A stretch of 64,000 bases of DNA from Lachnospiraceae bacterium (GTDB lineage Bacteria; Bacillota; Clostridia; Lachnospirales; Lachnospiraceae): the NCBI GenBank assembly GCA_022792535.1, contig JAAWBG010000048.1, positions 1 to 64,000 of the forward strand, read 5' to 3'. The notes beneath the pieces were generated by a model. The model was not told the DNA's origin, made no database searches, and worked only from the letters and a program-made list of their open reading frames with translations. The first letter of the stretch is position 1. Each line of letters opens with the position of its first letter. Shown here one piece after another: positions 29,196 through 44,684 of the stretch. The position numbers and the translations under genes were made by a program.

Positions 29196-29459
29196 ATGGC
29201 TTATAATAAAACCGAGAGAGGCGATTCTCCCATGAAGAGAAGAGGCGGAATGCGCAGAAGAAAGAAAGTATGTGTGTTCTGCGGAAAAGATAATGTGATC
29301 GACTACAAAGACACAAACAAATTAAAGAGATATATTTCTGAGAGAGGTAAGATCCTCCCCAGAAGAATTACTGGAAACTGTGCAAAACATCAGAGAGCTC
29401 TTACTGTTGCAATCAAGAGAGCAAGACATATTTCCCTGATGCCTTACGTTACAGATTAA
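29196..29459 (+). CDS. rpsR: 30S ribosomal protein S18
   Basis: 87 residues with the core [63 protein letters not shown]. The CxxC near the N-terminus marks the zinc-binding type of S18. ACAGGAGGT ribosome site. Confidence 0.97.
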
Positions 29460-29479: not shown

Positions 29480-29511
29480 GACCAATCATCTTCGGGTGGT
29501 TGGTCTGTTTT
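29480..29511 (+). terminator. Terminator of rpsF-ssb-rpsR
   Basis: 11-bp stem GACCAATCATC / GGTGGTTGGTC (with two G:T pairs) around a TTCG tetraloop, followed by TGTTTT. The start of the next gene lies 19 nt further on. Confidence 0.85.
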
Positions 29512-29529
29512 GCCTATTGGAGACGACAA

Positions 29530-31062
29530 ATGATAAAAGAGTTTTATGAGAAAAACAAGAAGATATTCTGCGCAGGGCTTATATTTTCTTTCCTTTGCTT
29601 CGGATTTATGCTGACCCATTATATGGTAAATATTGACGAAGAGACTTGGCTGCTGAAAGATTCCAATTCTCTGCTGTGGCTGTTCCAGGGGCGTTACGGA
29701 CTCTATATTTACGATTTTCTTTTTACAAAATACGGGCGTTTTGTGCCGTTTTTTTCCGACGTAGTCAGCATTGTGTTTTGGAATATCTCAGGATTTGTGT
29801 TTGCCTATGTCTTTTTTGATTTTGAGAAAAAAGGGCATTGGTGGATCCGGTTGATTATGCTCTGCTATTACAGTTCCCTTCCTCTTTGCATGGGGGAGGC
29901 TTTTGCATTTACCATGCAGATGATACCGGAATCTTTCGCTATGATTTTAACAGCGGCGGCTTTTGCGGCCACAGTAAAACCCTGGGTGAAGAAGAAAAAG
30001 ATCAATCTGGCTCTTATCATAGGAATGCTGGTCATGGCGGCAGGCGTATATCAGGCTTTAATCAATGTATATATTACGGCAGTGGCGGCTTGGTGTTTCT
30101 GCAGGTTTTTGGAGAAAGATACCATTAAACAGGGATTTTGCAGAGGAGTTTTTTGCAGTATTATTTCTGTGGCGGCATATTATGTAATAAATACTATCAT
30201 AGGAAAAGCCATAGGAACAGCGGCTTATCTGACCGATAATTATATTGGCTGGAATGATGAGCAGGGGATAGGACATGCCCTTTTTATGGCATTTGCCAAC
30301 GTAGTCCGGGTGTCTTTTGGAATTAAGATTCAGGATGTCTATATCTATGGCGCAATGCCCCTTCGGATTCTTATGATTCTGTTTTTGGGAGTTTCTGTGT
30401 GCTGGCTGTTTCAGAAAAAAGAGGGAATACAGCGGACAATAGCCGGGTTGTTTTTCTTAGGCGGCGTGGTGGCGGCGCCTTTTGCCACTTATCTGGCCAT
30501 GGGAACTTACAAGACCCAGGGAAGAATGCTGCTGGCCTTGTCTTTGTCTGGTATGGTTGAGATCCTTGTGATTTATCAAATGTTGTCCCGGAAAATATTC
30601 CAAAAAGCAGCGGTACTTGTTTTTTCAGGTGTTTTGGCGGCAAATGCTTCCAACATGAATCAGATTTATTATCATAGTTATTTGGTATACCAGCAGGATA
30701 AGGTCATTGCAGACGAGATCATGGATGAGATACAGAGACTCGGATATGATTATCATTCCAAGCCGGTGGTATTTATCGGAAGCAAAGAGAGAGATCAGGT
30801 TCCTCTTTTAAGATCCGGTACGCTGGGAGGATCTTTTTTTGAATGGGACGGGGGAAATATTGCCAGATTAGTAGATTTTATGGAATTGGAAGGTTATGTT
30901 TTATCTATGCCTTCCACTGCACAGATTGAGGAGGGATTAGAGCGGAGCAAAAATATGCAGACCTGGCCTCAGGAAGGAAGTATCGTAGAAACGAAGGATT
31001 CTATTGTGGTGTACCTGTCGGAACCTGGGGAAAAGTGGTATGCAACGAATCTGAGAAGATAA
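29530..31062 (+). CDS. GtrII-like polytopic membrane glycosyltransferase
   Basis: 510 residues from ATG 29530 (TTGGAGACGACAA upstream). About ten hydrophobic segments fill residues 15-380; after the first is MVNIDEETWLLKDSN, with an acidic DEE in the first loop, then FQGRYGLYIYDFL. A soluble domain of about 120 residues ends the protein. This layout matches Glucos_trans_II (GtrII) proteins, which modify surface glycans from lipid-linked sugars. It is directly upstream of the exosortase locus but appears to have a separate transcript. Confidence 0.65.
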   Translation: MIKEFYEKNKKIFCAGLIFSFLCFGFMLTHYMVNIDEETWLLKDSNSLLWLFQGRYGLYIYDFLFTKYGRFVPFFSDVVSIVFWNISGFVFAYVFFDFEKKGHWWIRLIMLCYYSSLPLCMGEAFAFTMQMIPESFAMILTAAAFAATVKPWVKKKKINLALIIGMLVMAAGVYQALINVYITAVAAWCFCRFLEKDTIKQGFCRGVFCSIISVAAYYVINTIIGKAIGTAAYLTDNYIGWNDEQGIGHALFMAFANVVRVSFGIKIQDVYIYGAMPLRILMILFLGVSVCWLFQKKEGIQRTIAGLFFLGGVVAAPFATYLAMGTYKTQGRMLLALSLSGMVEILVIYQMLSRKIFQKAAVLVFSGVLAANASNMNQIYYHSYLVYQQDKVIADEIMDEIQRLGYDYHSKPVVFIGSKERDQVPLLRSGTLGGSFFEWDGGNIARLVDFMELEGYVLSMPSTAQIEEGLERSKNMQTWPQEGSIVETKDSIVVYLSEPGEKWYATNLRR

Positions 31063-31155: not shown

Positions 31156-31185
31156 TTGAAAAACAAGGTTTTTTTGTGCTATAAT
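31156..31185 (+). promoter_or_regulatory. Promoter of the XrtG locus
   Basis: TTGAAA (31156-31161), 18-nt spacer, TATAAT (31180-31185), with TGC just before the -10 (extended -10). The resulting leader is about 115 nt. It holds a small hairpin ATTGAT-GTTTT-ATCAAT but nothing I recognise as a riboswitch. Confidence 0.65.
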
Positions 31186-31308: not shown

Positions 31309-31662
31309 ATGAAATACCATCGTTTAAAGTATCGTTTATGTATGCAGCACAGCTTTGACGGGAAGATAGAGAACAAACATCAGCATTTAATTGAAATAGA
31401 AATTGTGGCGAGGCAGATGACAGAAGATTTTATGGAGTTTGCCAGTATGGATTCCATTTTAGAGAAGGTGTTTGGTCCTTATCAATATCAATATTTGAAT
31501 GATTTTCCAGAATTTGAGGGGAATACAAGTATTGAAAATTTAGGCGAGGTGTTTTATTTAAAGGTAAGGGACGCATTAGAGAGGCAGCATTGGAAATTTG
31601 CCCGATTTGAGATTAGCGAAACACCTTTGCGAATCTATGCCATTGTAGAAGAAACATTTTAA
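31309..31662 (+). CDS. Divergent PTPS/QueD-fold protein, exosortase-locus associated
   Basis: 117 residues. Matches the 6-pyruvoyl-tetrahydropterin synthase/QueD fold: His14 and the pair His24-x-His26 fit the zinc triad; YLNDFPEFEGNTSIENL aligns with LDHxxLNxxxxxxxPTxEN; ISETPLRIYAIVEE keeps the pterin-binding Glu. The catalytic Cys before HxH is replaced (NKHQH), and the catalytic Asp-His pair before LN is lost (YQYLN). It therefore probably binds a ligand without being a synthase. First gene of the XrtG operon; a second such protein is encoded at 39458-39940. Confidence 0.7.
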   Translation: MKYHRLKYRLCMQHSFDGKIENKHQHLIEIEIVARQMTEDFMEFASMDSILEKVFGPYQYQYLNDFPEFEGNTSIENLGEVFYLKVRDALERQHWKFARFEISETPLRIYAIVEETF

Positions 31663-31694
31663 CACTGAGTCACTTTATCAAGGGAGGATTTTTT

Positions 31695-33857
31695 ATGAAA
31701 GCCAGAAAGATTTTCAGAGGAGCCGTGGCTGGTTTGATGTCAGTGTCACTTTTCCTGTCGGGAATGCCGGTAACAGCAGCAGAACTGGATAATAATACTG
31801 CACCTGCCCAGCAGACAGAGGCAGAGAATAATACTGGAGAGACAAAGACACCGGAGCAGCAGGCGCCAGAGCAGCAGCCTGGAACGGAGACGCAGCCGGA
31901 ACAGCAGCCCGGAACAGAGCAGCAGCCGGAACAGCAGCCCGGAACAGAGCAGCAGCCTGGAACAGAGACGCCGCCAGAGCAGCAGCCTGGAACAGAGACG
32001 CCGCCGGAACAACAGCCCGGGACAGAGCAGCAGCCTGGAACAGAGACAGATCAGAATACAGAGAACAATGGCGGAATAGAAGATAGCGATACGGAGAATC
32101 AAGGAGATATAAAAGATATAGAAGACGAAGAAGTTTTAGATCAAGAAGATAAAAAAAATATTGAGGACGAAGAAGAGGGAGAGATCAAAGAGAACGAGAC
32201 CCAGGCTTTTTCCCTGGATAGCCTTTCTGTTGTCAATGGAAATATTGCCATTGACGGTGATTTGTCTGACTGGGCAGAGGTAATGTCACGGAATTCCAAT
32301 GTTTCCAATGTGGATTCCTGGAAAGCCGCTTACTCGCCAGATGGCGGCACCTTGTATTTCAGTTATACAGGAACTGCCAGTACAGAATGGGATTATGGAT
32401 TTGGAAGCAAGGAGAATCGCTTTGCTATCAATTATTCCGATGGAATCACCGGAGAGAACAGTGAAATTTCTATTCGCGCATGGAATGGCGGGGCAGAAGT
32501 GAAAAATTCTTTCTGGGGCAATATTAACGGAGCATCTGTTGCAGTGACAAACGGGGCTCATGGAAATAATGCCGGACCTTATGTGGTTGAGTTTTCCGTT
32601 CCGGTGAGCTTTTTCCACAGTATGGATTTTACCATTGATTTTGGCGGAACGACTGTAAAATCCAATGAGATTCAAAAAATAAATGGAACATCCGTAGAGA
32701 CGGAGGCTCCGGCTGTATACGCAGGAATTACTATTGATGGAAATTATGCGGACTGGGAGGCAGTTTCTAAGACAGACGCGTCTTGTCCAAATGACGCCCA
32801 CAAAGAATGTTTATCTCAGGTTGCAGCGATTTTTGATGGAGACTGGTTCTACATTTATATCCGGGATGGTAAAAGCAGCAATGCTTCTGGCGCAGGTACT
32901 CACTCCAACGGAAGATTTGCCATCACTTCGGATTTGGGTCAGGAGACAGATATTCAGCTGAGCACTGCACCGGCAGTAAACGGTGTAAACGGAGCGCAGG
33001 TTGCTTACGTGGGAGACGAATGGGAGATTGCAATTCCTAAAGACCAGCTTCCAAAATACAGAGAGAGCCTTTCTTTTGGTCTCTATCTGGGTGAGCCCTT
33101 TATCACAGGTATCGTAAACTTGAAGCCAGACAGTGGAAATAATCTGGAACATCTTTTTGACGGAATCGTATATGATGGACAGTATGAAGACTGGGAAGAC
33201 TATGGACACACAACCATTGAATATGCAACTGCGGGAACTCAGGAGTCACAGGTTGACGCTAAGGGCGCGCTTTATTCTGATGGAGAAAAAGTGTATGCTC
33301 ATGTAGTTACTGATATGCCGCAGCATTTACAGGAAGCCGGTCAAGAGTTTACAGAGGCGGTTACCGTTGCATTTAATCAGAGTGCAGAGAAGCTGAACAA
33401 TGGAAGTTATGACCAGAAAATGGTTTTCTATCCCAGATATGTTGCAGTGGATGCCAATGGCAATATCAATTGGAACCCAGAGCGTATGCATTTACCAGAA
33501 GGTACATATGAATATTATATGGCTTCCCTGGATGCGTGGGGTACCTCTACGAACATCAGTAATTTGAATGAACATGATCAGCTGTATGGCAAGATGATGA
33601 TGACAATTGGCAAAGATGGCAAAGATGAGATGGAATTCTATCTGGAACTGCCGAAAATTGCTAAAAAACTTGGAGTTGATGAGACAGATTTGAAAGAAAT
33701 CTCCGCACAATTCGGACGGATCGGCCGGCAGTGGATTTTTACAGCAGGCACCTCTACCGGACCAATCGTGGGAGTGGTACTGTGTATTGCATCTGTAGGA
33801 GCAGTACTTTGGTATCGAAAGAGAAAAAAAAATGAATTATTGCCGGCGGCTGTATAA
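31695..33857 (+). CDS. Putative XrtG-sorted surface protein (Firmicu-CTERM-type tail, IDG-DW modules)
   Basis: 720 residues. Signal peptide (RKIFRGAVAGLMSVSLFLSGMPVTAAE); a spacer built of PEQQPGTE-type repeats (about residues 52-117); an acidic linker; then three modules beginning IDGDLSDW (about 184), IDGNYADW (about 345) and YDGQYEDW (about 491), resembling CBM9/DOMON-like carbohydrate-binding domains. The C-terminus has TSTGP, a hydrophobic helix (IVGVVLCIASVGAVLWY) and a basic RKRKKN tail, consistent with the Firmicu-CTERM signal processed by XrtG. It is encoded three genes from that exosortase. The sorting role is inferred from tail and context. Confidence 0.75.
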   Translation: MKARKIFRGAVAGLMSVSLFLSGMPVTAAELDNNTAPAQQTEAENNTGETKTPEQQAPEQQPGTETQPEQQPGTEQQPEQQPGTEQQPGTETPPEQQPGTETPPEQQPGTEQQPGTETDQNTENNGGIEDSDTENQGDIKDIEDEEVLDQEDKKNIEDEEEGEIKENETQAFSLDSLSVVNGNIAIDGDLSDWAEVMSRNSNVSNVDSWKAAYSPDGGTLYFSYTGTASTEWDYGFGSKENRFAINYSDGITGENSEISIRAWNGGAEVKNSFWGNINGASVAVTNGAHGNNAGPYVVEFSVPVSFFHSMDFTIDFGGTTVKSNEIQKINGTSVETEAPAVYAGITIDGNYADWEAVSKTDASCPNDAHKECLSQVAAIFDGDWFYIYIRDGKSSNASGAGTHSNGRFAITSDLGQETDIQLSTAPAVNGVNGAQVAYVGDEWEIAIPKDQLPKYRESLSFGLYLGEPFITGIVNLKPDSGNNLEHLFDGIVYDGQYEDWEDYGHTTIEYATAGTQESQVDAKGALYSDGEKVYAHVVTDMPQHLQEAGQEFTEAVTVAFNQSAEKLNNGSYDQKMVFYPRYVAVDANGNINWNPERMHLPEGTYEYYMASLDAWGTSTNISNLNEHDQLYGKMMMTIGKDGKDEMEFYLELPKIAKKLGVDETDLKEISAQFGRIGRQWIFTAGTSTGPIVGVVLCIASVGAVLWYRKRKKNELLPAAV
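31848..32048 (+). repeat. In-frame tandem repeat coding PEQQPGTE units
   Basis: About ten imperfect 18-24-bp units (GAGCAGCAGCCTGGAACA and close variants) code for QQPGTE or PEQQPGTE repeats. The codon-level identity between units suggests recent slippage-type expansion, so length may vary between strains. Confidence 0.85.
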
Positions 33858-33939
33858 TTCTGATCTTTCTGTCACATGTGAGATAAAGAGACATTATTCT
33901 GCTGGACAATAAAAATATAGGATATAGGAGGAATGGGCA

Positions 33940-36411
33940 TTGAGAGACAGAAGAAAGTCATATTATCTGATGGTATTAATGCCCATTCTTTATGCGTTAT
34001 CGGCATATGGAATGGCAATACTGGTACAAAACAGCGGGATTTACCCCAGCGGATCAGACACTTTGTCCCATATTTACAGGGGAGACGTGCTGTATCATGC
34101 AATTTGTAATGGAGATTATTGGCCTGTTTTTGATCCGCACTGGTATAATGGTGCGGAACTCATGCGTTATATGGCCCCGCTGCCTACATATCTTTTCGCT
34201 TTCTGCCAGTTTTTGGGCGGCGGAAATGCTATGACGGGCTTTCTGATTTTTGTTGCGTTTATTTTTTTTACAGGGGCTCTTGTGTGGCTTTATATTGGAT
34301 TTAAGGTGAATCGTCCATATTTTGGAGCCTTTGTTGGTTTTTTGTGGTTTTTTATTCCAAATAACTTGATTACGTTGTTTTATGAAGGGGACTTGCCCCG
34401 GTCTGTCTGCATTGCAGTTTTACCGCTCTTGATATATTGGGTGTATGATTATCTGCGGGAGCAGCACTGGTACACCATTCCTAAATTATCTCTTTGCTTT
34501 GCGGTGCTTGCTCTGTGCGAGCCGGAGTATGCATTGCTGGTGATGATTGCCTGCATGATCTACTTTGTGATAGACATGATTATTTATCACAAATGGCATA
34601 GAGATGTACAGGCATTTTTTGCATTGTTTTTGGGGTACTTTTTGATTGGCGTGTGGCTGGTTCCGGTTATAAAAGGAGACGTCACAGAGATAGATAATCT
34701 GGAGATTATGGCAGATTTTTTCCAGAATATGTTTTTGTCTGTCAATCCTTTTGCAAGGCTGCAGAGAGGATGCGTAGATGTTTATTTTGGCCTGGCGGCG
34801 ATGCTGCTGGCAGTTTTTGGAATTCTTTTAAGCAAGAAAAAATCTATGCCGGGATTTTGGACAGGGATTCTTATTTTGATCTGTTCTTCCGAGACGCTGT
34901 ACATTTTATTATCTTCCCTGCCGGGAGGAGACATTTTATTGATGCTGCGTTTTGTATCCATTGGCCTGTGTATGATTCTGTTTAGTTTTTTGATATGGGA
35001 CACTTTAAAAAAAGGATGGATCTTGTTTTTTGGAGTTTTGCTGATCCTGGATGTTGTGCCTTCCATGCCTCTGATCTTAGGGGGCCAGACGGGAAACCCT
35101 CCGGAGGTGCGTTTGAACTCTTATGCAGAGCGGACTTTGGTCAGGGAAGCAAAGGAAATGACAAGGCAGCGCCTGGCTTTGGTGGATGAGAGCAGCCTGG
35201 GTGGAATGAGTTCCTATTTGATTACGGGATATGAGAAAGCTGCGTTTACTACCTACGGCGGAGCAGAGGAAGCTGCCGCTACCATCAGCAATTTTAAACA
35301 GATTGACCGGGCGTTGGAAGAAGGGCATTATCTGTATGTATTTGACCGTTGTCTGGAAATGGGCAACGATACGGTAGTGATTCAGTTAGATATCGTGGGA
35401 GATCTGGGAAAGAATCCTATTCTGCAGATGGATCATGCCGCTTTACGAGTTGGATATGAGTTGGTAGATTATAATGATAATTACCGTTTTTATAAATTAA
35501 AGAAAAAAGGAATTGATGGAAATTGGGGAACGATCACAAAATATCGTGCTATCGGTATTGGAAGGGCTGCTCCGGGAATTTCCAGACAGTTTCCGATTGT
35601 AGAGGAAACAGAGACAACGAATTTGAATGATTTTACTTTTGAGGAATTAAAGGGATATGATATGATCTATTTGTCTGGCTTTACTTATGATGATAAGGAG
35701 AAGGCAGAGAAAATGATTGAGGATCTAAGTGAAGCCGGCGTTCGAATTGTGATAGCGGCAGATGGAATACCGGATGACAGGGGGAGCCAGAACCAGAGTT
35801 TTCTGGGAGTAATCTGTAATGGAGTTTCTTTTTCTCAGGGATATCCCAATCTGGATACCATAGACGGGGTGTTGGAGACAGATCTGTTTCCTAACGGATA
35901 CCGGGATTGGAGCACTGTATATGTGGACGGCCTGGATGAAGTCTGGGGAACTGTGAAAGATTTGGACTGGAATCTTCCCTTCTTTGGGACAGTAAAAAAT
36001 GATAATATTATTGTAATTGGATTGAATTTGACCTATTATTATGGATTGACTTTAGATGAAGGAGTAGGCGCTTTGTTGAACCGCGCTATGAATATAAGCT
36101 CTACGGAACTGCCGGAGCGGGAGATCGTGCCCTATACTGTTCAGTATGGAACAGATGATATTACCATTCAGGTAGATCGGGATGATGTCAATACAGGTCT
36201 GGCATATCATAATAGTTTTACTGCCAGTCAGGAAATTTATATGAAAAATCATTTGACTTATGTAGGAGCGGGAACCACGGTAATCTCCATTGGTCATCCC
36301 TATCTGGTATATGGCATTGCAGTCAGCGGAGGGGCTCTGGTCTTACTGTTGGGGTATACCGTCTACATACGCTCGCGTCTGCAGAGGAAGGAAGAAGAAA
36401 CAGAAAAATAG
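33940..36411 (+). CDS. PTPS-related large membrane protein of the XrtG locus
   Basis: 823 residues from a TTG start 8 nt after AGGAGG. The first 375 residues hold about ten transmembrane segments with the conserved early loop GSDTLSHIYRGDVLYHAICNGDYWPVFDPHWYNGAELMRY. A soluble, probably extracellular domain of about 400 residues follows, and one last helix (PYLVYGIAVSGGALVLLLGYTVYI) with a basic tail. This matches the PTPS_related (PF10131) membrane family, which has a GT-C-like layout and no proven reaction. A role in polymerising or transferring a lipid-linked sugar is inferred. Confidence 0.75.
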   Translation: MRDRRKSYYLMVLMPILYALSAYGMAILVQNSGIYPSGSDTLSHIYRGDVLYHAICNGDYWPVFDPHWYNGAELMRYMAPLPTYLFAFCQFLGGGNAMTGFLIFVAFIFFTGALVWLYIGFKVNRPYFGAFVGFLWFFIPNNLITLFYEGDLPRSVCIAVLPLLIYWVYDYLREQHWYTIPKLSLCFAVLALCEPEYALLVMIACMIYFVIDMIIYHKWHRDVQAFFALFLGYFLIGVWLVPVIKGDVTEIDNLEIMADFFQNMFLSVNPFARLQRGCVDVYFGLAAMLLAVFGILLSKKKSMPGFWTGILILICSSETLYILLSSLPGGDILLMLRFVSIGLCMILFSFLIWDTLKKGWILFFGVLLILDVVPSMPLILGGQTGNPPEVRLNSYAERTLVREAKEMTRQRLALVDESSLGGMSSYLITGYEKAAFTTYGGAEEAAATISNFKQIDRALEEGHYLYVFDRCLEMGNDTVVIQLDIVGDLGKNPILQMDHAALRVGYELVDYNDNYRFYKLKKKGIDGNWGTITKYRAIGIGRAAPGISRQFPIVEETETTNLNDFTFEELKGYDMIYLSGFTYDDKEKAEKMIEDLSEAGVRIVIAADGIPDDRGSQNQSFLGVICNGVSFSQGYPNLDTIDGVLETDLFPNGYRDWSTVYVDGLDEVWGTVKDLDWNLPFFGTVKNDNIIVIGLNLTYYYGLTLDEGVGALLNRAMNISSTELPEREIVPYTVQYGTDDITIQVDRDDVNTGLAYHNSFTASQEIYMKNHLTYVGAGTTVISIGHPYLVYGIAVSGGALVLLLGYTVYIRSRLQRKEEETEK

Positions 36412-36441
36412 AATGAAGGAAAAGTGGAGTGAAGTGATGAA

Positions 36442-37041
36442 ATGATAAAGTATATTGTGGGTTTGATCGGATTGGTCATATGGTTATTTATCTTACACAT
36501 TTTAAATAAGAGTAAATTAAATTTCTGGCATTTTATTGTGGGAAGCGCAGGAGCCTTTATTCTGATGCTGGTTTTCTTACAGCCAGTGCTGACACAGCCT
36601 TTGGCCCGGATTGTAGCTTTATTGGCAAGCCTTCCAGGTAAGATCGGCAGCATGTACAGCGCCCATTACAAATATGGCGTAATTTTTGTACAGTCTGCGG
36701 TGGGGGCCATTTCCTTAAAAATTGACTTTGAGTGTTCTGGTATTATAGAGATTATAGCTTATCTTTCCCTGCTGATCTTTTATCGGGTTTATACCGTGTA
36801 TGAGCGGGTATATGTGGGAGTTCTTGGAGTGATTGCCATGGTACTGGCAAACGCCCTGCGTATTACAGTGATTTGCATGATCATTTATTTTGGCGGCATT
36901 GACATGTATTATATAGCCCATACCTTTGTGGGCCGGTTTGTATTTTATGGATTATCCGTTATGATATATTTCTATGTCTTTACGAAACCGCAGATAATCA
37001 AACAGAAGGTGGGAAGTTTCCGATATGACAGTGATAAGTAA
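36442..37041 (+). CDS. xrtG: Exosortase XrtG
   Basis: 199 residues, about seven transmembrane segments. The exosortase active-site residues are present in order: Cys98 (FECSGIIEI), Arg140 (NALRITVI) and His160 (YIAHTFVGRF). The short form without an N-terminal extra domain and the Gram-positive setting fit XrtG. Exosortases are membrane cysteine proteases/transpeptidases that cut proteins bearing a C-terminal helix-plus-basic tail. The likely substrate is the protein at 31695-33857. The gene overlaps the glycosyltransferase by 17 nt. Confidence 0.85.
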   Translation: MIKYIVGLIGLVIWLFILHILNKSKLNFWHFIVGSAGAFILMLVFLQPVLTQPLARIVALLASLPGKIGSMYSAHYKYGVIFVQSAVGAISLKIDFECSGIIEIIAYLSLLIFYRVYTVYERVYVGVLGVIAMVLANALRITVICMIIYFGGIDMYYIAHTFVGRFVFYGLSVMIYFYVFTKPQIIKQKVGSFRYDSDK

Positions 37042-38389
37042 TTTTATAAATTCCATATTGTTTTGGGCGGCGTGGATTATCATTCCCTTAATCATGGAGA
37101 TCATTCCCTCTATGGGAAGTGTTTTTATCCTGATTAAGAAGAAATTATTTCCGAAAAAATATGAGGATCCGGTATTTTGGCCGGAGATTACGCTGATTAT
37201 TCCAGTATACAATTCGGAGGATTCTCTTCAAGAATGTATTCAATCCATCAATAACAGCGATTATCCCAATGACAAGATGCGTATCTTTCTGGTGAATAAT
37301 CAGGGAAAAGACAATTCTTTTCAAGTCTATACCAAATGTCAGGAATTGTATCCAGATCTGTTGATGCAATGGCTTAATGCAAAACAAGGGAAATCCCGCG
37401 CGCTGAATCTTGCGCTGTTTAATGCAGATGGAAAATACATTATCCATGTGGACAGCGACGGACAGTTTGAACCTCATGCCATCAGTAATATGGTGCGCAA
37501 ATTTGAGTGCAGCCCGGATGTGGACTGTATGACAGGCGCGATTCTTACCATGCCGGAAATGATCGAAGAGTATAAAGGAGTCTTTGCAAGGCTGCTGCGG
37601 AAGATGGAATTTATGGAGTATGCCCAGGCGTTTTTGGCAGGGCGTAACTATGCTTCTGAGACGAATTCTATCTATACTCTTTCCGGGGCGTTTTCTGCCT
37701 TTCGGAAATCGGCGGTGTTAAAATCTCAGCTTTATAATACAGATACCATCTGCGAAGATACTAATATTACCTTTCAGATGCGTTTTCTGCAGAAAATTAA
37801 GGTGGAGATCTGTGAGAATGCTATTTTCTGTGTGGATCCTATTGAGGGGATCAATAAGCTTTACACTCAGAGACAGCGTTGGCAGAGGGGAAGCCTGGAA
37901 GTTTCCCATCAGTTCCTGGAGAAAGATCTGAAAGTGCATAAGATGTTTACCAACGTTATGGTTCGGACTTTGATGTACGATCATACGTTTGCTTTTCCGC
38001 GTTTGATTTGGTATCTGGCCTTGATCTGCCTGATGTGCATGAATTATTCTGCAAAAGTGATCTTAATTTCCACAGGAATTATCTTTTTACTCTACATTAT
38101 CAGCGGCTACCTGTACTATCTTTCTACAGTAGGATTCTTAAAGGAGTTTGATGATCTGAAGAAATACTACCGAAGGCATTGGTATGTGGTGCCTTTACTT
38201 CCGTTTTTTAATTTTATCGTATTCTTTATTCGGTTTGCAGGAGTGATCAACAGTATCAACACAGACAGCGCATGGAAAACCCGTACATTGACGGATGAAC
38301 GGAAGGATTTCGAGGCAGAGTTAAAATCGGAAGCACAGAAACCCTTGAATTTATTACAGAAAGCGCGTAAGGCAGTAAATTACGAGTAG
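37025..38389 (+). CDS. Processive family 2 glycosyltransferase, exosortase-G associated
   Basis: 454 residues. One N-terminal helix, then a GT2 domain (ITLIIPVYNSEDSLQECI), DxD as HVDSDGQ (Asp143, Asp145), catalytic base in TICEDTN (Asp245) and QRQRW (282-286), the D,D,D,QxxRW set of cellulose/hyaluronan-synthase-type processive enzymes. C-terminal transmembrane segments (LALICLMCMNY, VILISTGIIFLLYIISGYL, LPFFNFIVFFIRF) would form the export channel. The polymer product cannot be deduced from sequence. The gene is coupled to xrtG by overlap. Confidence 0.88.
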   Translation: MTVISNFINSILFWAAWIIIPLIMEIIPSMGSVFILIKKKLFPKKYEDPVFWPEITLIIPVYNSEDSLQECIQSINNSDYPNDKMRIFLVNNQGKDNSFQVYTKCQELYPDLLMQWLNAKQGKSRALNLALFNADGKYIIHVDSDGQFEPHAISNMVRKFECSPDVDCMTGAILTMPEMIEEYKGVFARLLRKMEFMEYAQAFLAGRNYASETNSIYTLSGAFSAFRKSAVLKSQLYNTDTICEDTNITFQMRFLQKIKVEICENAIFCVDPIEGINKLYTQRQRWQRGSLEVSHQFLEKDLKVHKMFTNVMVRTLMYDHTFAFPRLIWYLALICLMCMNYSAKVILISTGIIFLLYIISGYLYYLSTVGFLKEFDDLKKYYRRHWYVVPLLPFFNFIVFFIRFAGVINSINTDSAWKTRTLTDERKDFEAELKSEAQKPLNLLQKARKAVNYE

Positions 38390-38402
38390 GGGAACGAAGC
38401 TT

Positions 38403-39461
38403 ATGAAACATAAAATTAATTTTTTCGTTATAACGGCTATTGTGGTGTTTTTTTCCATGGCGGCAGATATCTTTATTGTATATCAGCTGAATAATTATGA
38501 GACCAGATTTTTGGAAATCTATGGTTCTGAGCAGGATGGATATGTTAAAATCATTCTGGAACAGATCAATCGTCTGGATGATCAGGGAACAGAGGAAGAC
38601 ATCACGGAGATCATCAGTTCTCTGGACGCGACTGCCAGCAGATATTGGACCCTGAGTAAGGGAGATTCCATTTTATTTGTAAAAAGCGTTACGGAGACAA
38701 ACAGATACAAGGGATTTACAGATGGAACTTATTATGCAAGCGAGACGGCTTCTGAGTTTATGCGCAATCTAGGTGTAAACCAGGTAGGCCATCAGATTAT
38801 TTATCTGGATAATGACCGTTTTATTGCTTCCGGCATGATTTTTAACTGGAAAGATGAGGAGTATCGAATCTGTCTGCTGACTTATGACCGGGTGATTTTA
38901 GAGGACAACATTCTGCTGGAATGCAAGAATTCTATTATCATTATTCTATCTCTGGTTCTGGCTCTTTTGATTATTTTGAGTATGATTATGTCCCGGAAGA
39001 TCAGTAAGCAGGCCATTCGGATTGATAAACAGGAAGAGCGCGTGGTATGGCAGAATCAGCAGATTGAGCTGTTAGACGAACAGTTAAAACGGGAGTATGC
39101 TTTTAGCGCCAGCAAACACGTATTTAAGAAAAATATATTAAATGAATTTTTGCGCACATTGGATGAAAAGGGTGTATGTCCCCTTCATTTTGCATTGTTT
39201 GAAACCGACTCTAAGGAAGCGCGGGATGAATTTTTTGAGCATATGCAGATTGTTCTGGATAACAATGTACTGCGTTTTTCCATGGATGAAAGACAGGTGC
39301 TTTTGATCTTTGTCCAGTATGAGAGAACTGTCAGCGACAGAATTATTGAATCTCTGGAAAACTGGAATGTGCGCGGTTTGGATCAGTTATATTGCGAGGA
39401 TAATATGAACAGCTATCAAGTGCAGTTTGATGAATTTTGGAAGAAGGTGGCGGGTGCGTGA
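38403..39461 (+). CDS. Two-helix sensor-like membrane protein of the XrtG locus
   Basis: 352 residues. Helix near 8-28, an extracytoplasmic domain of about 150 residues, a second helix near 177-196 (SIIIILSLVLALLIILSMIM), a coiled-coil segment (KQEERVVWQNQQIELLDEQLK) and a cytosolic C-terminal domain of about 120 residues. The layout is that of a membrane receptor. The cytosolic domain has alternating strands and helices that could be a very degenerate GGDEF-type domain, but no GGDEF or catalytic motif is seen. Probably controls polymer production; inference only. GTGA overlap with the next gene. Confidence 0.65.
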   Translation: MKHKINFFVITAIVVFFSMAADIFIVYQLNNYETRFLEIYGSEQDGYVKIILEQINRLDDQGTEEDITEIISSLDATASRYWTLSKGDSILFVKSVTETNRYKGFTDGTYYASETASEFMRNLGVNQVGHQIIYLDNDRFIASGMIFNWKDEEYRICLLTYDRVILEDNILLECKNSIIIILSLVLALLIILSMIMSRKISKQAIRIDKQEERVVWQNQQIELLDEQLKREYAFSASKHVFKKNILNEFLRTLDEKGVCPLHFALFETDSKEARDEFFEHMQIVLDNNVLRFSMDERQVLLIFVQYERTVSDRIIESLENWNVRGLDQLYCEDNMNSYQVQFDEFWKKVAGA

Positions 39462-39940
39462 GAAAAGAGAGATTATATCGGGAATATCGTTTGAAGTCTT
39501 ATTTGAATATGAATCACTATATCACCATCAATGGCAAGCAGGGACAGACACATCCTCATACCTGGGAATTTGTGATCACTATGATTGTAGATGGGGATGA
39601 ATTTGTAGAATTTCGTACCTTTGAGTCTCTGATTGAACAGTATTTGGACAAATATCAGAATCAGATCTTGAATACGATTGAGCCCTTTGACATTATCGTT
39701 CCGACCATTGAGAATGTGACGGATCATTTTAATGAGGAACTTCAGGGATTATTGCAGGAACATGGAGGCGAGCTGGTGTCTATGGAGGGAAGTGAGACGC
39801 CTACGAGAAGCTATATTGTCAGCCATAGAAATGAGCCAGAGTTTATTGATCAGATCGGAAAGAAGCAGACAGAGCAGATTTCCGGCGTGGTTAACTATGT
39901 GGTAGAGCAGATTATCAATGGCCAGGACAAGAAGTGGTAA
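39458..39940 (+). CDS. Second divergent PTPS/QueD-fold protein
   Basis: 160 residues from GTG 39458 (a GTGA overlap with the previous stop). PTPS-like: His20 and His32-Pro-His34 fit the zinc triad; FVEFRTFESL corresponds to the DFxxL segment; YQNQILNTIEPFDIIVPTIENV aligns with LDHxxLN...PTxEN; SETPTRSYIV keeps the Glu. As in the protein at 31309-31662, the catalytic Cys and Asp-His are replaced, here by Gln and Gln-Asn. Probably non-catalytic, ligand-binding. Paralogue of the first gene in the same operon. Confidence 0.7.
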   Translation: MRKERLYREYRLKSYLNMNHYITINGKQGQTHPHTWEFVITMIVDGDEFVEFRTFESLIEQYLDKYQNQILNTIEPFDIIVPTIENVTDHFNEELQGLLQEHGGELVSMEGSETPTRSYIVSHRNEPEFIDQIGKKQTEQISGVVNYVVEQIINGQDKKW

Positions 39941-39986
39941 TTCCATAGAGAGTGGGAGTGGCAGGGAATTGTGAAAGGACGAAAAA

Positions 39987-42137
39987 ATGAAAAAATTAAG
40001 ATCTAGTGCGGCGCTGATATTAGTCTTGACAATATCAGCAGGACTTTTTTCAGGTTGTTCTCGTAAAGATTCAGAGATCACCATTCATCCAGATACGAAA
40101 AATGAAGCAGAGACAGAACAGGAAAAAGAAACAGAGAAAGTGGAATCTCCTGTTCTGCCTATCTATACAGAAGATGATATTCAGTATGCTTTTCGGACGA
40201 ATGAGAAAAAATTTCAGATTTACAAAGAGGATGGCACCTGGCAGGACATCCTTCCTGTGGGAGTGAATATTGGAGCAGGGAAACCAGGAGCTTTTCCAGG
40301 AGAATTTGCCATTACAAAGGATGATTATCTGCGGTGGTTTCGCCAGATCAGTGAAATGCATGCAGATACTATCCGTGTCTATACCGTGTTGATGCCGGAG
40401 TTTTATGAAGCCCTTGCAGAATATAATGCCGCGGCAGAAAATCCTTTGTATTTTATCCAGGGCGTTTACAATAATGAGGAAGATATCAGCAATATCTGTG
40501 ATGCCTATGGGGAGGATAGCAAGATTACAAAAGATTGGATTGCTATGTGTGAAACGATCGTAGATGTTGTCCATGGAAATGCAGTGATTGATCCGGTTCC
40601 GGGAAATGCCAGCGGAACTTATACAGCAGATGTGTCTCAATATCTGCTTGGCTGGATTCTGGGAATTGAATGGCAGCCGGATTTTGTCATCAATACCGAT
40701 GAGAGTAATCCAGATAAAAATGTATTTGAAGGAAAATACCTGTACACCGAAGAGGCGACGCCTTTTGAGGCTTTTCTTGCTTCTGGGATGGATGCATGTA
40801 TTGCTTATGAGACAGAGAATTACAAGATGCAGCACCCTACTGCCTTCGCAAACTGGGTGACGACAGATCCTCTTTCCCATCCGGGAGAACCCAATCCTGA
40901 GATGGAAGATGCGGTGTCTGTAGATGCAGAGCATGTGAAAGCAAAACCAGAATTTAAGGCGGGGCTCTTTACTTCTTATCACGTATATCCCTATTATCCA
41001 GAAATGATGCGGTATGCGCCGGAGCTGCTGACAGAGGATCCCAAGAATCCCTATAAACATTATTTGAATGATCTGAACAGCTACCATACGATGCCAGTGG
41101 TGATCTCTGAGTTTGGCGTACCTGCGTCCAGAGGAATCACTCATCTTGCCCATGATCCAGGTTTTAATCAGGGCGGATTGACGGAAGAAGAACAGGGGAA
41201 TGCAATTGTATCCATGTTAAGTGATATTATTGAGACAGGATGCGCCGGGGCCTGCGTATTTATCTGGCAGGATGAATGGTTTAAAAGAACCTGGAATACT
41301 ATGGATTATACCGATGGAGAGATCAGACCTTATTGGTGTGACGTCCAGACCAGCGAGCAATTTTTTGGTCTGCTGTCTTTTGATCCGGGAGAACAGCCAG
41401 TCTGTGTGGTAGATGGCGATGATAAAGAATGGGAGGGAGAAGAGCCTCTGCTTGTGAGCGGCAATACGGAACTCTATGTGAGAAGTGATGAAGCATATGT
41501 CTATCTGATGATCCGCGGCGATAATGATAATATCAATATTACTCTGGATACCATTGAAAATCAGGGGAATTCAGAATATGGAGGAGCAGATTTTTCTCTG
41601 GAATTAAAGGGAACAGAAGAGAGCCGGCTTCTGATTGATCCTTATTACGATGTGAATTACTGGCTCTACACCACAGGATTATATGCAGAAAACAAGATCC
41701 TGGAGGTGAAAGAAGGGTATGCAGAGCCAGACAGTAATAAATTTGAAGCAATCTACCTGATGCTGAACCGGCCGGTACTGCTTACAGATGGAACGCTGGT
41801 GGAAACAGAGCAGATTGAGACAGGCAGACTTCGTCATGGCAATGCCGATCCAGATTCATCTGACTATAATTCCAGAGCAGATTTCTGCATCAAAGACCAG
41901 GTGACGGAGATCCGTCTGCCTTGGCTGCTGCTCAATATACCAAAGCCCAACGTTAAGATGCGTATTGCGAATCTGTATGCAAATGATGAGATCACTTATG
42001 AGGCCATTGATCATATCAATTTTGCAATTGGCGATGAGAGCGCTCCCTATCTCTGGGAGGAATGGATGATGCCTACTTATCGGGAACGGTTAAAGCAGTC
42101 TTATTATATTTTGCAGGATTACCTTTCAAAACGATAA
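39987..42137 (+). CDS. TIM-barrel glycosidase-like lipoprotein with CBM9-like module
   Basis: 716 residues. Lipobox LFSGC gives Cys24, so an extracellular lipoprotein. Residues about 60-460 look like a glycoside-hydrolase TIM barrel: GVNIGAGKPGAFPGEF, TIRVYTVLMPEFYEALA, a nucleophile-like Glu in VISEFGVPASRG (about 375), and FIWQDEWFKRTWNTMDY. From about 470 a module begins VDGDDKEWEGE, resembling the IDG-DW modules of the putative XrtG substrate. It probably trims, transfers or holds the locus polysaccharide. The glycosidase family is not identified. Last gene of the operon. Confidence 0.7.
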   Translation: MKKLRSSAALILVLTISAGLFSGCSRKDSEITIHPDTKNEAETEQEKETEKVESPVLPIYTEDDIQYAFRTNEKKFQIYKEDGTWQDILPVGVNIGAGKPGAFPGEFAITKDDYLRWFRQISEMHADTIRVYTVLMPEFYEALAEYNAAAENPLYFIQGVYNNEEDISNICDAYGEDSKITKDWIAMCETIVDVVHGNAVIDPVPGNASGTYTADVSQYLLGWILGIEWQPDFVINTDESNPDKNVFEGKYLYTEEATPFEAFLASGMDACIAYETENYKMQHPTAFANWVTTDPLSHPGEPNPEMEDAVSVDAEHVKAKPEFKAGLFTSYHVYPYYPEMMRYAPELLTEDPKNPYKHYLNDLNSYHTMPVVISEFGVPASRGITHLAHDPGFNQGGLTEEEQGNAIVSMLSDIIETGCAGACVFIWQDEWFKRTWNTMDYTDGEIRPYWCDVQTSEQFFGLLSFDPGEQPVCVVDGDDKEWEGEEPLLVSGNTELYVRSDEAYVYLMIRGDNDNINITLDTIENQGNSEYGGADFSLELKGTEESRLLIDPYYDVNYWLYTTGLYAENKILEVKEGYAEPDSNKFEAIYLMLNRPVLLTDGTLVETEQIETGRLRHGNADPDSSDYNSRADFCIKDQVTEIRLPWLLLNIPKPNVKMRIANLYANDEITYEAIDHINFAIGDESAPYLWEEWMMPTYRERLKQSYYILQDYLSKR

Positions 42138-42629: not shown

Positions 42630-44684
42630 ATGAAAAAGCAAAATCGTTTCAGAGGACAATTGAAAAATTATATGTATTGGCCTCTGATGATGACAATTTT
42701 AATTGTGTTGATGAACATACCGATTTATTACTTGGACAAGAAAGCAGGAATCTGCGTATCTGTGTTTGCAGTACTGTATTTTTTGATTGTGTTCGGAATT
42801 TTTATGGTTAACAGATCTCTCATACGAAATGAGGTAATCAGCTTTGCCACTCAGTATGGGACAGTTCAGAAAAAATTATTGGATGAATTTATGATTCCTT
42901 ATGCTTTACTGGATTATAACAGTAAAATTCTCTGGATGAATGAGATTTTTTCTCAGATTACCGAAAAAGATAAGCAGTATCACAAATCCATCACTACTAT
43001 TTTTCCGGCTATTACCAGAGAGATATTGGAGCGGGAAGGCGACCATAACAATATTCAGGTAGAGTGGAAAGATCGAATCTACAGGGCCAGTATAGGAAAG
43101 ATTTATTTTGACGAGGCTGCCAGTGAAGGCGGCTTGATTGAAGTGGAAAGCAAAAATCAGTTTCTGATGGCATTATATCTCTTTGACGAGACGGAGCTTC
43201 ACAAATATATTCAGGAAAACCGGGAACAGCAGCTGATCTCTGCCCTGGTTTATATTGACAATTACGAGGAAGCTCTGGAAAGTATCGAGGAGGTAAAACG
43301 ATCTCTTTTGGTGGCCCTGGTGGACCGTAAAGTGAGCAAATATTTTTCTGAGCGGGACAGCATTGTGAAAAAATTTGAGAAAGACAAATATTTTGTGGTC
43401 TTTAAACACAAATATTTAGAAGAGTTGATCACAGACAAGTTCAGTATCTTAGAGGATGTAAAAACCATTAAAGTGGGAAATGAAATGGCGGTAACTCTAA
43501 GTATCGGCGTAGGCGTCAGCGGCAATAATTACAACCAAAAATATGAATATTCCCGAATGGCCATTGACCTTGCCCTGGGCAGAGGCGGAGATCAGGCTGT
43601 GGTGAAAGAAGGGGAAAAAATCTCCTATTTTGGCGGAAAATCCAGACAGATGGAGAAAATGACCCGTGTAAAAGCCCGTGTGAAAGCCCATGCGCTGCGG
43701 GAGATTATTGAGAGCCGGGAGCAGGTATTTATTATGGGCCACAGCATTAGCGATATGGATGCTTTTGGAGCGGCTATCGGTATTTTCTGTGCGGCGCAGG
43801 TATTAGGAAAGAAGACCTATATTGTCTTAAATGAAGTAACTTCTTCTCTCCGGCCTATGAAAGAATGTTTTACGGAGGAAAAGGGATATCCGCCGGATAT
43901 GTTTGTGCGGAGTGAAAAGGCCATGGAACTGGTAAATGCCCAGAGCGTAGTGGTGGTGGTGGACACCAATCGTCCCAATTATACGGAATGTCCGGAATTG
44001 CTGAACCGCAGTAAAACCATCGTAGTGTTCGACCATCACAGACAGAGCAGCGAAGTAATTGAAAATGCGGTGCTCTCTTATATTGAGGCTTATGCTTCTT
44101 CCACTTGTGAGATGGTGGCGGAGGTACTGCAGTATTTCAATGAAAATATCCATTTGAAGCCTAATGAGGCAGACAGTATCTATGCAGGAATCTTGATTGA
44201 TACCAATAATTTTATGACAAAAACAGGTGTGCGTACTTTTGAGGCGGCGGCATATCTGCGAAGATGCGGTGCCGAGGTGACAAGAGTCCGCAAACTTTTG
44301 CGGGATGACATGGCAGCTTACAAGGCAAGAGCAGAAGCAGTCCGCCATGCGGAAGTATATAAGGGAGCCTTTGCCATTTCCATCTGCCCTGCAGATCAGG
44401 ATGTGGAAAGTCCAACTATCGCCGGAGCCCAGGCAGCCAACGAGCTGCTGAATATTGTGGGAATCAAAGCATCTTTTGTGCTCACTGAGTACAATGGGAA
44501 AATATATATTAGTTCCCGTTCCATTGATGAGATCAATGTACAGCTTATTATGGAACGGTTAGGAGGCGGCGGACATCTGAACGTGGCCGGAGCCCAGATG
44601 ACAGACTGCAGTGTATTGGAGGCAAAAAAACGCATTCAGGAGACATTAGATCAGATGCTTGAGGAAGGAGACATAGAAGTATGA
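42630..44684 (+). CDS. gdpP: Cyclic-di-AMP phosphodiesterase GdpP
   Basis: 684 residues. Two N-terminal transmembrane helices, a degenerate PAS domain (about 85-180), a modified GGDEF-like domain ([34 protein letters not shown]), and the DHH/DHHA1 catalytic module: [30 protein letters not shown], and [12 protein letters not shown]. It hydrolyses c-di-AMP to pApA. It overlaps rplI by ATGA; the gdpP-rplI-dnaB order is standard in Bacillota. Confidence 0.95.

Follow-up and report, generated by a model that had tools for sequence, protein, structure and literature searches.

Exosortases have been named from sequence, and the closest described counterpart of the locus studied here is the XrtG / Firmicu-CTERM system, in which the exosortase XrtG is encoded together with a Firmicu-CTERM protein and a processive family 2 glycosyltransferase (GT2). 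Examples occur in Lachnospira eligens (NC_012780.1), on the Lactococcus lactis plasmid pBV60 and at LP_RS09075-09090 of Lactiplantibacillus plantarum (PMC12854382). Here we describe such a locus at positions 31309-42137 of a 64,000-nucleotide stretch from a Lachnospiraceae bacterium (contig JAAWBG010000048.1; the whole stretch is called the window). Judged by its sequence, the window locus is an ordinary further member of this named system, as which related loci are already annotated. What is new is that XrtG and its synthase have identical distributions over 299 genomes of the family, each occurring in the same 20, and that in a lineage of relatives the exosortase is fused to the module of its presumed substrate and lacks its catalytic cysteine; this Cys-less, substrate-fused exosortase is the most interesting result.

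As elsewhere, the Firmicu-CTERM gene, xrtG and the GT2 gene stand together in the window with PTPS genes beside them, and the locus is over cut-off in all four NCBIfam families of the system. The window's clade differs from the described examples in having a GT-C gene between the Firmicu-CTERM gene and xrtG, three modules in the Firmicu-CTERM protein and, in most of its members, a lipoprotein gene after these; the run itself is set between rpsR and gdpP. A search limited to the open-licence literature found no functional work on XrtG / Firmicu-CTERM and no description of fused or inactive exosortases. XrtG and its Firmicu-CTERM partner are reported among the over-expressed proteins of interferon-inducing L. 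plantarum strains (PMC12854382).

Three better described systems offer partial likenesses. XrtA / PEP-CTERM likewise pairs a Cys-Arg-His membrane enzyme with tails built of a motif, a helix and a basic end, near exopolysaccharide (EPS) genes (PMC1569441), and the [ST]P[IV]P tails found outside our family resemble PEP. Unlike that system, for which a median of eight substrates per genome is given (PMC1569441), the window has one substrate at the locus, and XrtG hosts have no outer membrane. Archaeosortase A shares the superfamily model TIGR04178 with XrtG, and its Cys is proposed to form an enzyme-substrate thioester; in contrast to the arrangement described for it, the window run has a polysaccharide synthase and no PssA/PssD genes (PMC7157517). 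The Listeria Pss operon also combines an IcaA/BcsA-like GT2 with a degenerate GGDEF protein, but the BcsB-like PssD and the I-site of PssE, which binds cyclic di-GMP (c-di-GMP), belong to Pss, and the passages cited describe no exosortase (PMC4125290). No BcsB family stood among the listed family matches of the run proteins, and the sensor-like protein here is without an I-site; membership in Pss was rejected on these two grounds. The gts operon of Lactobacillus acidophilus was considered as a functional stand-in and not used: the passages describing it mention a GT2 together with a c-di-GMP receptor but do not mention an exosortase (PMC6123363).

The run consists of eight plus-strand open reading frames (ORFs) that are spaced by 13-82 bases or overlap slightly, with a promoter-like site 5' of them.

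31156-31185, plus strand: promoter-like site TTGAAA-18-TATAAT, matching 11 of 12 consensus positions
31309-31662, plus strand: PTPS-a, PTPS-fold protein with zinc ligands kept and catalytic residues lost (TIGR03112, 74.5 bits; PF01242, 48 bits; residue census)
31695-33857, plus strand: Firmicu-CTERM protein (TIGR04145, 118.7 bits over residues 491-712)
33940-36411, plus strand: PTPS_related membrane protein of the GT-C clan (PF10131, 396.8 bits); start uncertain, TTG at 33940 or later
36442-37041, plus strand: exosortase XrtG with Cys98, Arg140 and His160 (TIGR03110, 171.1 bits)
37025-38389, plus strand: processive GT2 synthase with QRQRW (TIGR03111, 623.9 bits), overlapping xrtG by 17 bases
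38403-39461, plus strand: sensor-like membrane protein (AlphaFold2 and Foldseek; no family match)
39437-39940, plus strand: PTPS-b, PTPS-fold pseudoenzyme (TIGR03112, 122.1 bits; residue census); start at 39437 or 39458
39987-42137, plus strand: lipoprotein with lipobox Cys24, one half possibly a glycoside hydrolase and the C-terminus a DGxxxDW-like module (conserved residues; profile comparison)

The scores for the following families exceed the curated cut-offs (TIGR03110, 102.75 bits; TIGR03111, 363.95; TIGR03112, 69.35; TIGR04145, 50; PF10131, 26.4). A preliminary description of the window, made from the letters and their ORFs, had named the exosortase with its three residues, a GT2 with QRQRW, a PTPS-related membrane protein, two PTPS-fold proteins and a Firmicu-CTERM tail of TSTGP, helix and RKRKKN, all on one strand with overlaps or short gaps, and each of these is borne out. 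It had also counted nine elements, where we count eight ORFs, one of them the sensor-like protein that it did not name, and had called the lipoprotein a TIM barrel, for which neither a significant match to any family or PDB sequence nor a confident model was obtained (AlphaFold2 predicted local distance difference test, pLDDT, 41).

The Firmicu-CTERM protein has a signal peptide, a Pro/Gln/Thr-rich linker, three modules with DGxxxDW motifs at residues 187, 348 and 494, and the TSTGP-transmembrane-RKRKKN tail; the long repeat linker ahead of the first module lies in 31695-32200. Its gene is the single TIGR04145 match in the window's genome (3.19 Mb, 92.7% complete, the contig being 94.5 kb). 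The LPXTG anchor model scored 11.6 bits on the tail, below its cut-off of 15.9, so that the tail does not pass as a sortase/LPXTG anchor. Petralouisia muris, Eubacterium sp. 14-2 and uncultured relatives have XrtG proteins that share 88-93% identity with that of the window. The next-best families of the window GT2 were PgaC_IcaA (123.7 bits, below its cut-off) and CelA (28.7), and QRxRW is present in all 55 GT2 rows from the window and related loci; a DSD search in the same rows matched 42 of 55 and was not used, the pattern being too narrow.

Co-occurrence was assessed in 299 genomes of the same family, 398 genomes of the phylum and 54 genomes of bacterial family f26 (genomes and loci are cited below by G and L numbers). 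Within the family, XrtG was over cut-off in 20 of 299 genomes and TIGR03111 in the same 20, with synthase scores of 583-668 bits, against a maximum of 117 in the remaining genomes. The Firmicu-CTERM family was matched in 21 of the 299, 19 over cut-off: the 20 with XrtG, among them G475 at 36 bits, below cut-off, and G530 (21.7 bits), which is without XrtG. Each of the 20 XrtG genomes has its Firmicu-CTERM match in one gene, at the locus; no second tail-bearing gene was matched in them, a further match in G463 covering the module part only. The preliminary description had proposed a complete, synthase-coupled XrtG locus with a probable dedicated substrate, and these counts agree with it, as does the fusion of the substrate module to the exosortase in other loci.

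In the phylum, XrtG was matched in 13 of 398 genomes (9 over cut-off) and Firmicu-CTERM in 6 (2 over cut-off). This mismatch led us to the arrangements described next. We rejected the idea that Firmicu-CTERM is absent outside the family: in the 18 such genomes searched the module is fused or diverged, and the shortfall reflects the reach of the model. Outside the family the DGxxxDW module is encoded separately, on the GT-C protein or on the exosortase itself. At L079, L085, L086 and L087 the C-terminus of the GT-C protein is a DGxxxDW module followed by a [ST]PVP-helix-basic tail, and the exosortase of this lineage keeps its Cys. At L080, L081, L083 and L084 an N-terminal helix and a like module stand in front of the exosortase, in proteins of 398-400 residues. 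In these four fused exosortases the catalytic Cys is replaced by Asn (ENSG); the other 44 of 48 rows have Cys.

XrtG was matched in 13 of the 54 f26 genomes, and all 13 were examined. Five further fused loci (L103, L107, L108, L109 and L110) carry ENSG and five further unfused loci (L101, L102, L104, L105 and L106) carry ECSG, both as predicted before the ten sequences were read. Among the unfused loci, L101 and L106 have a complete module gene with a SPIP-helix-basic tail just upstream of the exosortase, the module gene of L102 and L104 runs off the contig with its upstream end outside the data, and at L105, whose assignment is therefore tentative, the GT-C protein is shortened and a short ORF behind it encodes the second half of the module only. 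Three named plasmid loci keep the Cys (3/3). In total, Asn is found in 9/9 exosortase-fused loci (8 genomes, families f26 and f70) and Cys in 52/52 other XrtG rows (49 plus the 3 plasmid rows, near-copies counted). The 49 include L089 (23.6 bits, below cut-off and of another exosortase type), L088 (joined to a GT2) and L076, which has the same sequence as L028 and was left out of the tree; L078, a weak second place in G573, was left out.

The remainder of the fused enzyme is retained. Arg is present in 9/9 fused exosortases and His in 8/9, the exception being truncated at a contig end, and the Asn codon is AAT in all eight copies checked. With minor variation the junction reads GDIQW-xPFP, which corresponds to GDIQWSPIP in the separate proteins, and the tail helix and basic end are gone. 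The synthase of the Cys-less lineage keeps its QRxRW motif. Identity of the exosortase part falls to 56% among fused members, and the ratio of nonsynonymous to synonymous substitution rates (dN/dS) was about 0.14 and about 0.10 in two close pairs, more distant pairs being saturated; these ratios indicate that the fused exosortase is under purifying selection. In the 18 genomes around these loci, some of them incomplete and G015 a single contig, TIGR04178 found one exosortase each, except two in G709, both of them fused copies, and no second kind. No other exosortase that could do the work is thus seen. The module profile likewise found one gene per genome at the locus, with two in G709 and an additional fragment at the edge of a contig in G730.

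A substrate other than the Firmicu-CTERM protein is very improbable in light of these results. XrtG would then act on another protein or on a lipid-linked sugar; tails of the L061, L075 and L077 type lack a clear STGP motif and no experiment on an XrtG substrate was found in the open-licence literature, but one tail-bearing gene is matched per XrtG genome, at the locus, and fusion of the module to the exosortase coincides with loss of both tail and Cys. Since the nucleophile is lost where cutting would be needless, the module protein is probably the XrtG substrate and cutting the main job of the Cys. The body of the enzyme is kept after Cys loss, which points to a further, structural role. The product of the reaction can be replaced by a module welded to the membrane, and in another lineage the module forms part of the GT-C enzyme, which suggests that the module works at the membrane near the synthase.

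Two other fates of the cut protein were weighed against these arrangements. XrtG might only trim the tail, with water as acceptor, so that the protein is released or matured. This would be simple, and the tail has the usual motif-helix-basic build, but trimming a module on a GT-C fusion would release nothing and fusion to XrtG rules release out, which makes this reading improbable. The preliminary description had instead proposed a synthase-coupled joining of protein and polysaccharide; on that reading XrtG would attach the cut Firmicu-CTERM protein to the growing polymer and so yield a capsule tethered by protein. The synthase-coupled part of that claim stands, as XrtG is strictly coupled to a processive synthase; the joining part is somewhat weakened, because in nature the module stays tied to the membrane in two arrangements, on the GT-C enzyme or on a Cys-less exosortase. 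Sorting to EPS has been put forward for PEP-CTERM proteins (PMC1569441), and in the GT-C-fused lineage, where the Cys is kept, sorting would leave the new C-terminus of the GT-C protein joined to something, for which the polymer is a sensible partner. Against this, one lineage dispenses with the reaction altogether, its sole exosortase found being Cys-less and module-welded beside a synthase with QRxRW intact, and no acceptor chemistry is apparent. We therefore regard joining to the polymer as unlikely, although not negligibly so.

Taken together, these results lead us to propose, tentatively and at a little under even probability, that the locus encodes a synthase-dependent surface-polysaccharide machine in which XrtG places a module at the membrane beside the synthase. 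The family assignments, the co-occurrence, the fusions and the residue losses are its firm parts; we infer the remainder. The GT2 would build and extrude a beta-linked, probably hexosamine-type polymer, and the GT-C protein would use a lipid-linked donor to add sugars on the outer face. On the cytoplasmic side, the sensor-like protein and the two dead PTPS domains would make up a layer for control or scaffolding. Outside, the Firmicu-CTERM protein would display one to three probable sugar-binding modules; XrtG would cut its C-terminal tail through Cys98 and hand the new C-terminus to a membrane-near acceptor, most likely a lipid by analogy with archaeosortase A (PMC7157517), and the lipid attachment would keep the module next to the synthase. 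Where the module is fused to XrtG, cutting would become needless, Cys98 could change to Asn, and the exosortase body would be kept as a membrane subunit. Action of the module at the membrane beside the synthase favours such a membrane-near acceptor over export to a distant polymer, and the fused sequences argue against a substrate that must leave the membrane to join a distant polysaccharide. A possible but less probable variant makes XrtG chiefly a structural subunit of the synthase: the Cys would only set one partner module at that complex, in a reaction that gene fusion has replaced to leave a conserved Cys-less exosortase, and a ring of the dead PTPS domains, able to bind a ligand, would link sensor, GT-C protein and substrate protein in the cytoplasm.

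Several points weigh against the proposal of a module placed by XrtG. The run contains no lipid-synthesis gene, unlike archaeosortase A with PssA. A synthase tree with 54 members unites all seven synthase-bearing fused loci in one clade (SH-aLRT 100) adjoining unfused f26 loci; fusion, tail loss and Cys loss therefore count as one event or a short series and not as nine, and the fused lineage may have changed function. The midpoint root of this tree serves for drawing only, and the ancestral arrangement is not read from it. Kinship of the modules is also uneven. In profile comparisons (hhalign) the GT-C-fused module matched the exosortase-fused module at 99.7% (3e-26), and the latter matched the Firmicu-CTERM module at 81% (1.2e-5), but the Firmicu-CTERM and GT-C-fused modules matched at 32% over 21 columns only. 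For the C-terminal part of the lipoprotein the match was 61% with the exosortase-fused module, 13% with that of Firmicu-CTERM and 0.7% with the GT-C-fused one. Values were at most 1.2% in all 12 comparisons that set the four module profiles against those of PTPS, GT2 and the sensor. Sugar binding by the module is plausible, from weak matches: the best PDB match was 2j44 (E 0.046), which we take to be a CBM41-type chain, and the Pfam matches were AMPK1_CBM (0.031) and X25 pullulanase (0.06), in 1/14 members each.

PTPS domains are a constant part of the family loci. In active PTPS enzymes three His bind zinc, a Glu serves as an anchor, and a Cys and an Asp-His pair are catalytic. A census of 75 domains, all with matches of E 1e-8 or lower and with close relatives counted, found the three His in 73, including both window copies, and the anchoring Glu in 72, with Asp in the remaining three. 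The catalytic Cys just before HxH was found in 0/75, as was the Asp-His pair, in whose place stand YQ, YE and similar residues; the profile matches four solved PTPS structures, and the pair is present in all three alignments shown. Thus, while the T-fold family match, the three His and the Glu are as in QueD and PTPS enzymes, the Cys and the Asp-His pair are missing throughout. From this residue pattern the domains are zinc-site pseudoenzymes, which may have kept the ability to bind a ligand resembling pterin or guanine. Some stand alone; others begin the GT-C protein (L063-L066, L070, L074 and the majority of loci outside the family) or end the sensor (L059, L064), and at L060 only, a PTPS domain precedes the Firmicu-CTERM module in the same frame. 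In this last arrangement (L060:10284-11318) a single ORF encodes the PTPS domain, which is cytoplasmic, together with a membrane helix and the module. At an Aneurinibacillus locus (L113:6802-10173) the PTPS has lost one zinc-binding His, and the gene ahead of xrtG encodes a protein that has no DGxxxDW motif and whose tail is sorting-like. At L059:11613-12710 and L064:7219-8316 a PTPS domain replaces the GGDEF-like end of the sensor. PF10131, the family of the GT-C protein, is listed in GT-C clan CL0111 (PMC7801869); a narrow GT-C motif search was discarded after matching 18 of 46 proteins and missing near-identical ones.

The sensor-like protein of the window had no match in family scans. Its predicted architecture (AlphaFold2, pLDDT 75.7) is a transmembrane helix, an extracellular PAS/Cache-like domain, a second transmembrane helix, a coiled coil and a degenerate GGDEF-like end. 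In Foldseek searches the outer domain resembled the WalK ectodomain (TMt 0.61, E 0.003) and the end resembled GGDEF domain 4zvg (TMt 0.38-0.43, E 0.008-0.016). This fold raises the question of whether c-di-GMP switches the synthase through the sensor, as PssE does in Listeria. There are 12 GGDEF places in the genome of the window, and one sensor (L062) has GKGEF at the motif place, but GG[DE]EF is found in 0 of 31 sensor rows. RxxD strings occur within the C-terminal 140 residues of 11 of these sensors, among them the window's, yet by our reading of the sequences away from the I-site position. A profile comparison against a genuine GGDEF domain gave 0.25%, no support, and the window contains no riboswitch, of the c-di-GMP type or other; seven related loci had no c-di-GMP riboswitch either. 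On the L. lactis plasmid pBV60 (L112:4413-8765), PAS-GGDEF and EAL genes directly precede the Firmicu-CTERM gene, xrtG and the synthase, and the GGDEF looks active from its sequence; c-di-GMP control is therefore likely there, and the arrangement speaks for a switch. For the window sensor we consider such a switch rather unlikely.

Make-up of the loci was compared in the 20 of the family (L059-L077 and the window). All 20 have a PTPS domain, the copy of L069 being hidden by an opposite-strand ORF. A GT-C protein is present in 18, L062 ending at a contig edge and L077 showing none. The sensor is present in 16, being absent from L061, L065, L075 and L077, partial in L060 and PTPS-fused in L059 and L064. 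Additional enzymes point to a decorated surface polymer. The synthase of L068:10235-13111 carries a phosphoglycerol-transferase-like domain of sulfatase fold (PF00884, 68.7 bits, over cut-off), which scored 155 bits against phosphoglycerol transferase I, below the cut-off of 572; the neighbouring genes of L063 include one for a YfhO-type GT-C protein (611 bits), and the small GT2s of L066 and L079 come closest, below cut-offs, to polyprenyl-phosphate-sugar synthases. A like extension, judged from the letters, is seen in the synthase of L039:10584-13532, and the two synthase fusions suggest glycerol-phosphate decoration of the polymer. These two GT2s (958 residues in L068, 982 in L039) had been candidates for XrtG-GT2 fusions and were rejected as such because the added part is this phosphoglycerol-transferase-like domain. 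At L088:9785-11233 XrtG and GT2 are joined in one frame, in which about 90 GT2 residues are gone and which is probably degenerate.

The lipoprotein conserves C24, E228, E375 and D476-G477-W482, and the two Glu residues would fit a TIM-barrel hydrolase. Compared with clan GH-A, a distant copy at L081 matched GH113, at E 0.019 only. Relatives of the lipoprotein stand beside a second GT-C protein at L081:2164-4332 and L084:17172-19400, near the Cys-less exosortase loci.

On the flanks of the run are rpsR (29196-29459) and gdpP (42630-44684). Between rpsR and the run, at 29500-31062, lies a gene for a GtrII-type GT-C membrane protein (PF14264, 78.7 bits), a gene labelled in 0 of 48 related loci. 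The gdpP gene, c-di-AMP phosphodiesterase-like, stands 3' of the run with rplI and dnaB; among the related loci compared this neighbourhood is limited to close relatives of the window, and we thus judge it incidental. The promoter-like site at 31156-31185 is weak evidence for a start of the run, because the search found 42 such sites against 37.9 expected.

XrtG loci occur in gut Lachnospiraceae, and also in strains of L. plantarum whose aggregation and host signalling have been studied (PMC12854382). For enzymes named from sequence, the relevance of these findings lies in the role of XrtG in Gram-positive bacteria. Its relatives provide a natural test, in which the substrate is welded to the exosortase, the tail and the Cys are lost, and the exosortase body and the synthase are kept. 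In this way evolution points to the probable substrate of XrtG, and the fusion suggests that the product of the reaction works beside the synthase.

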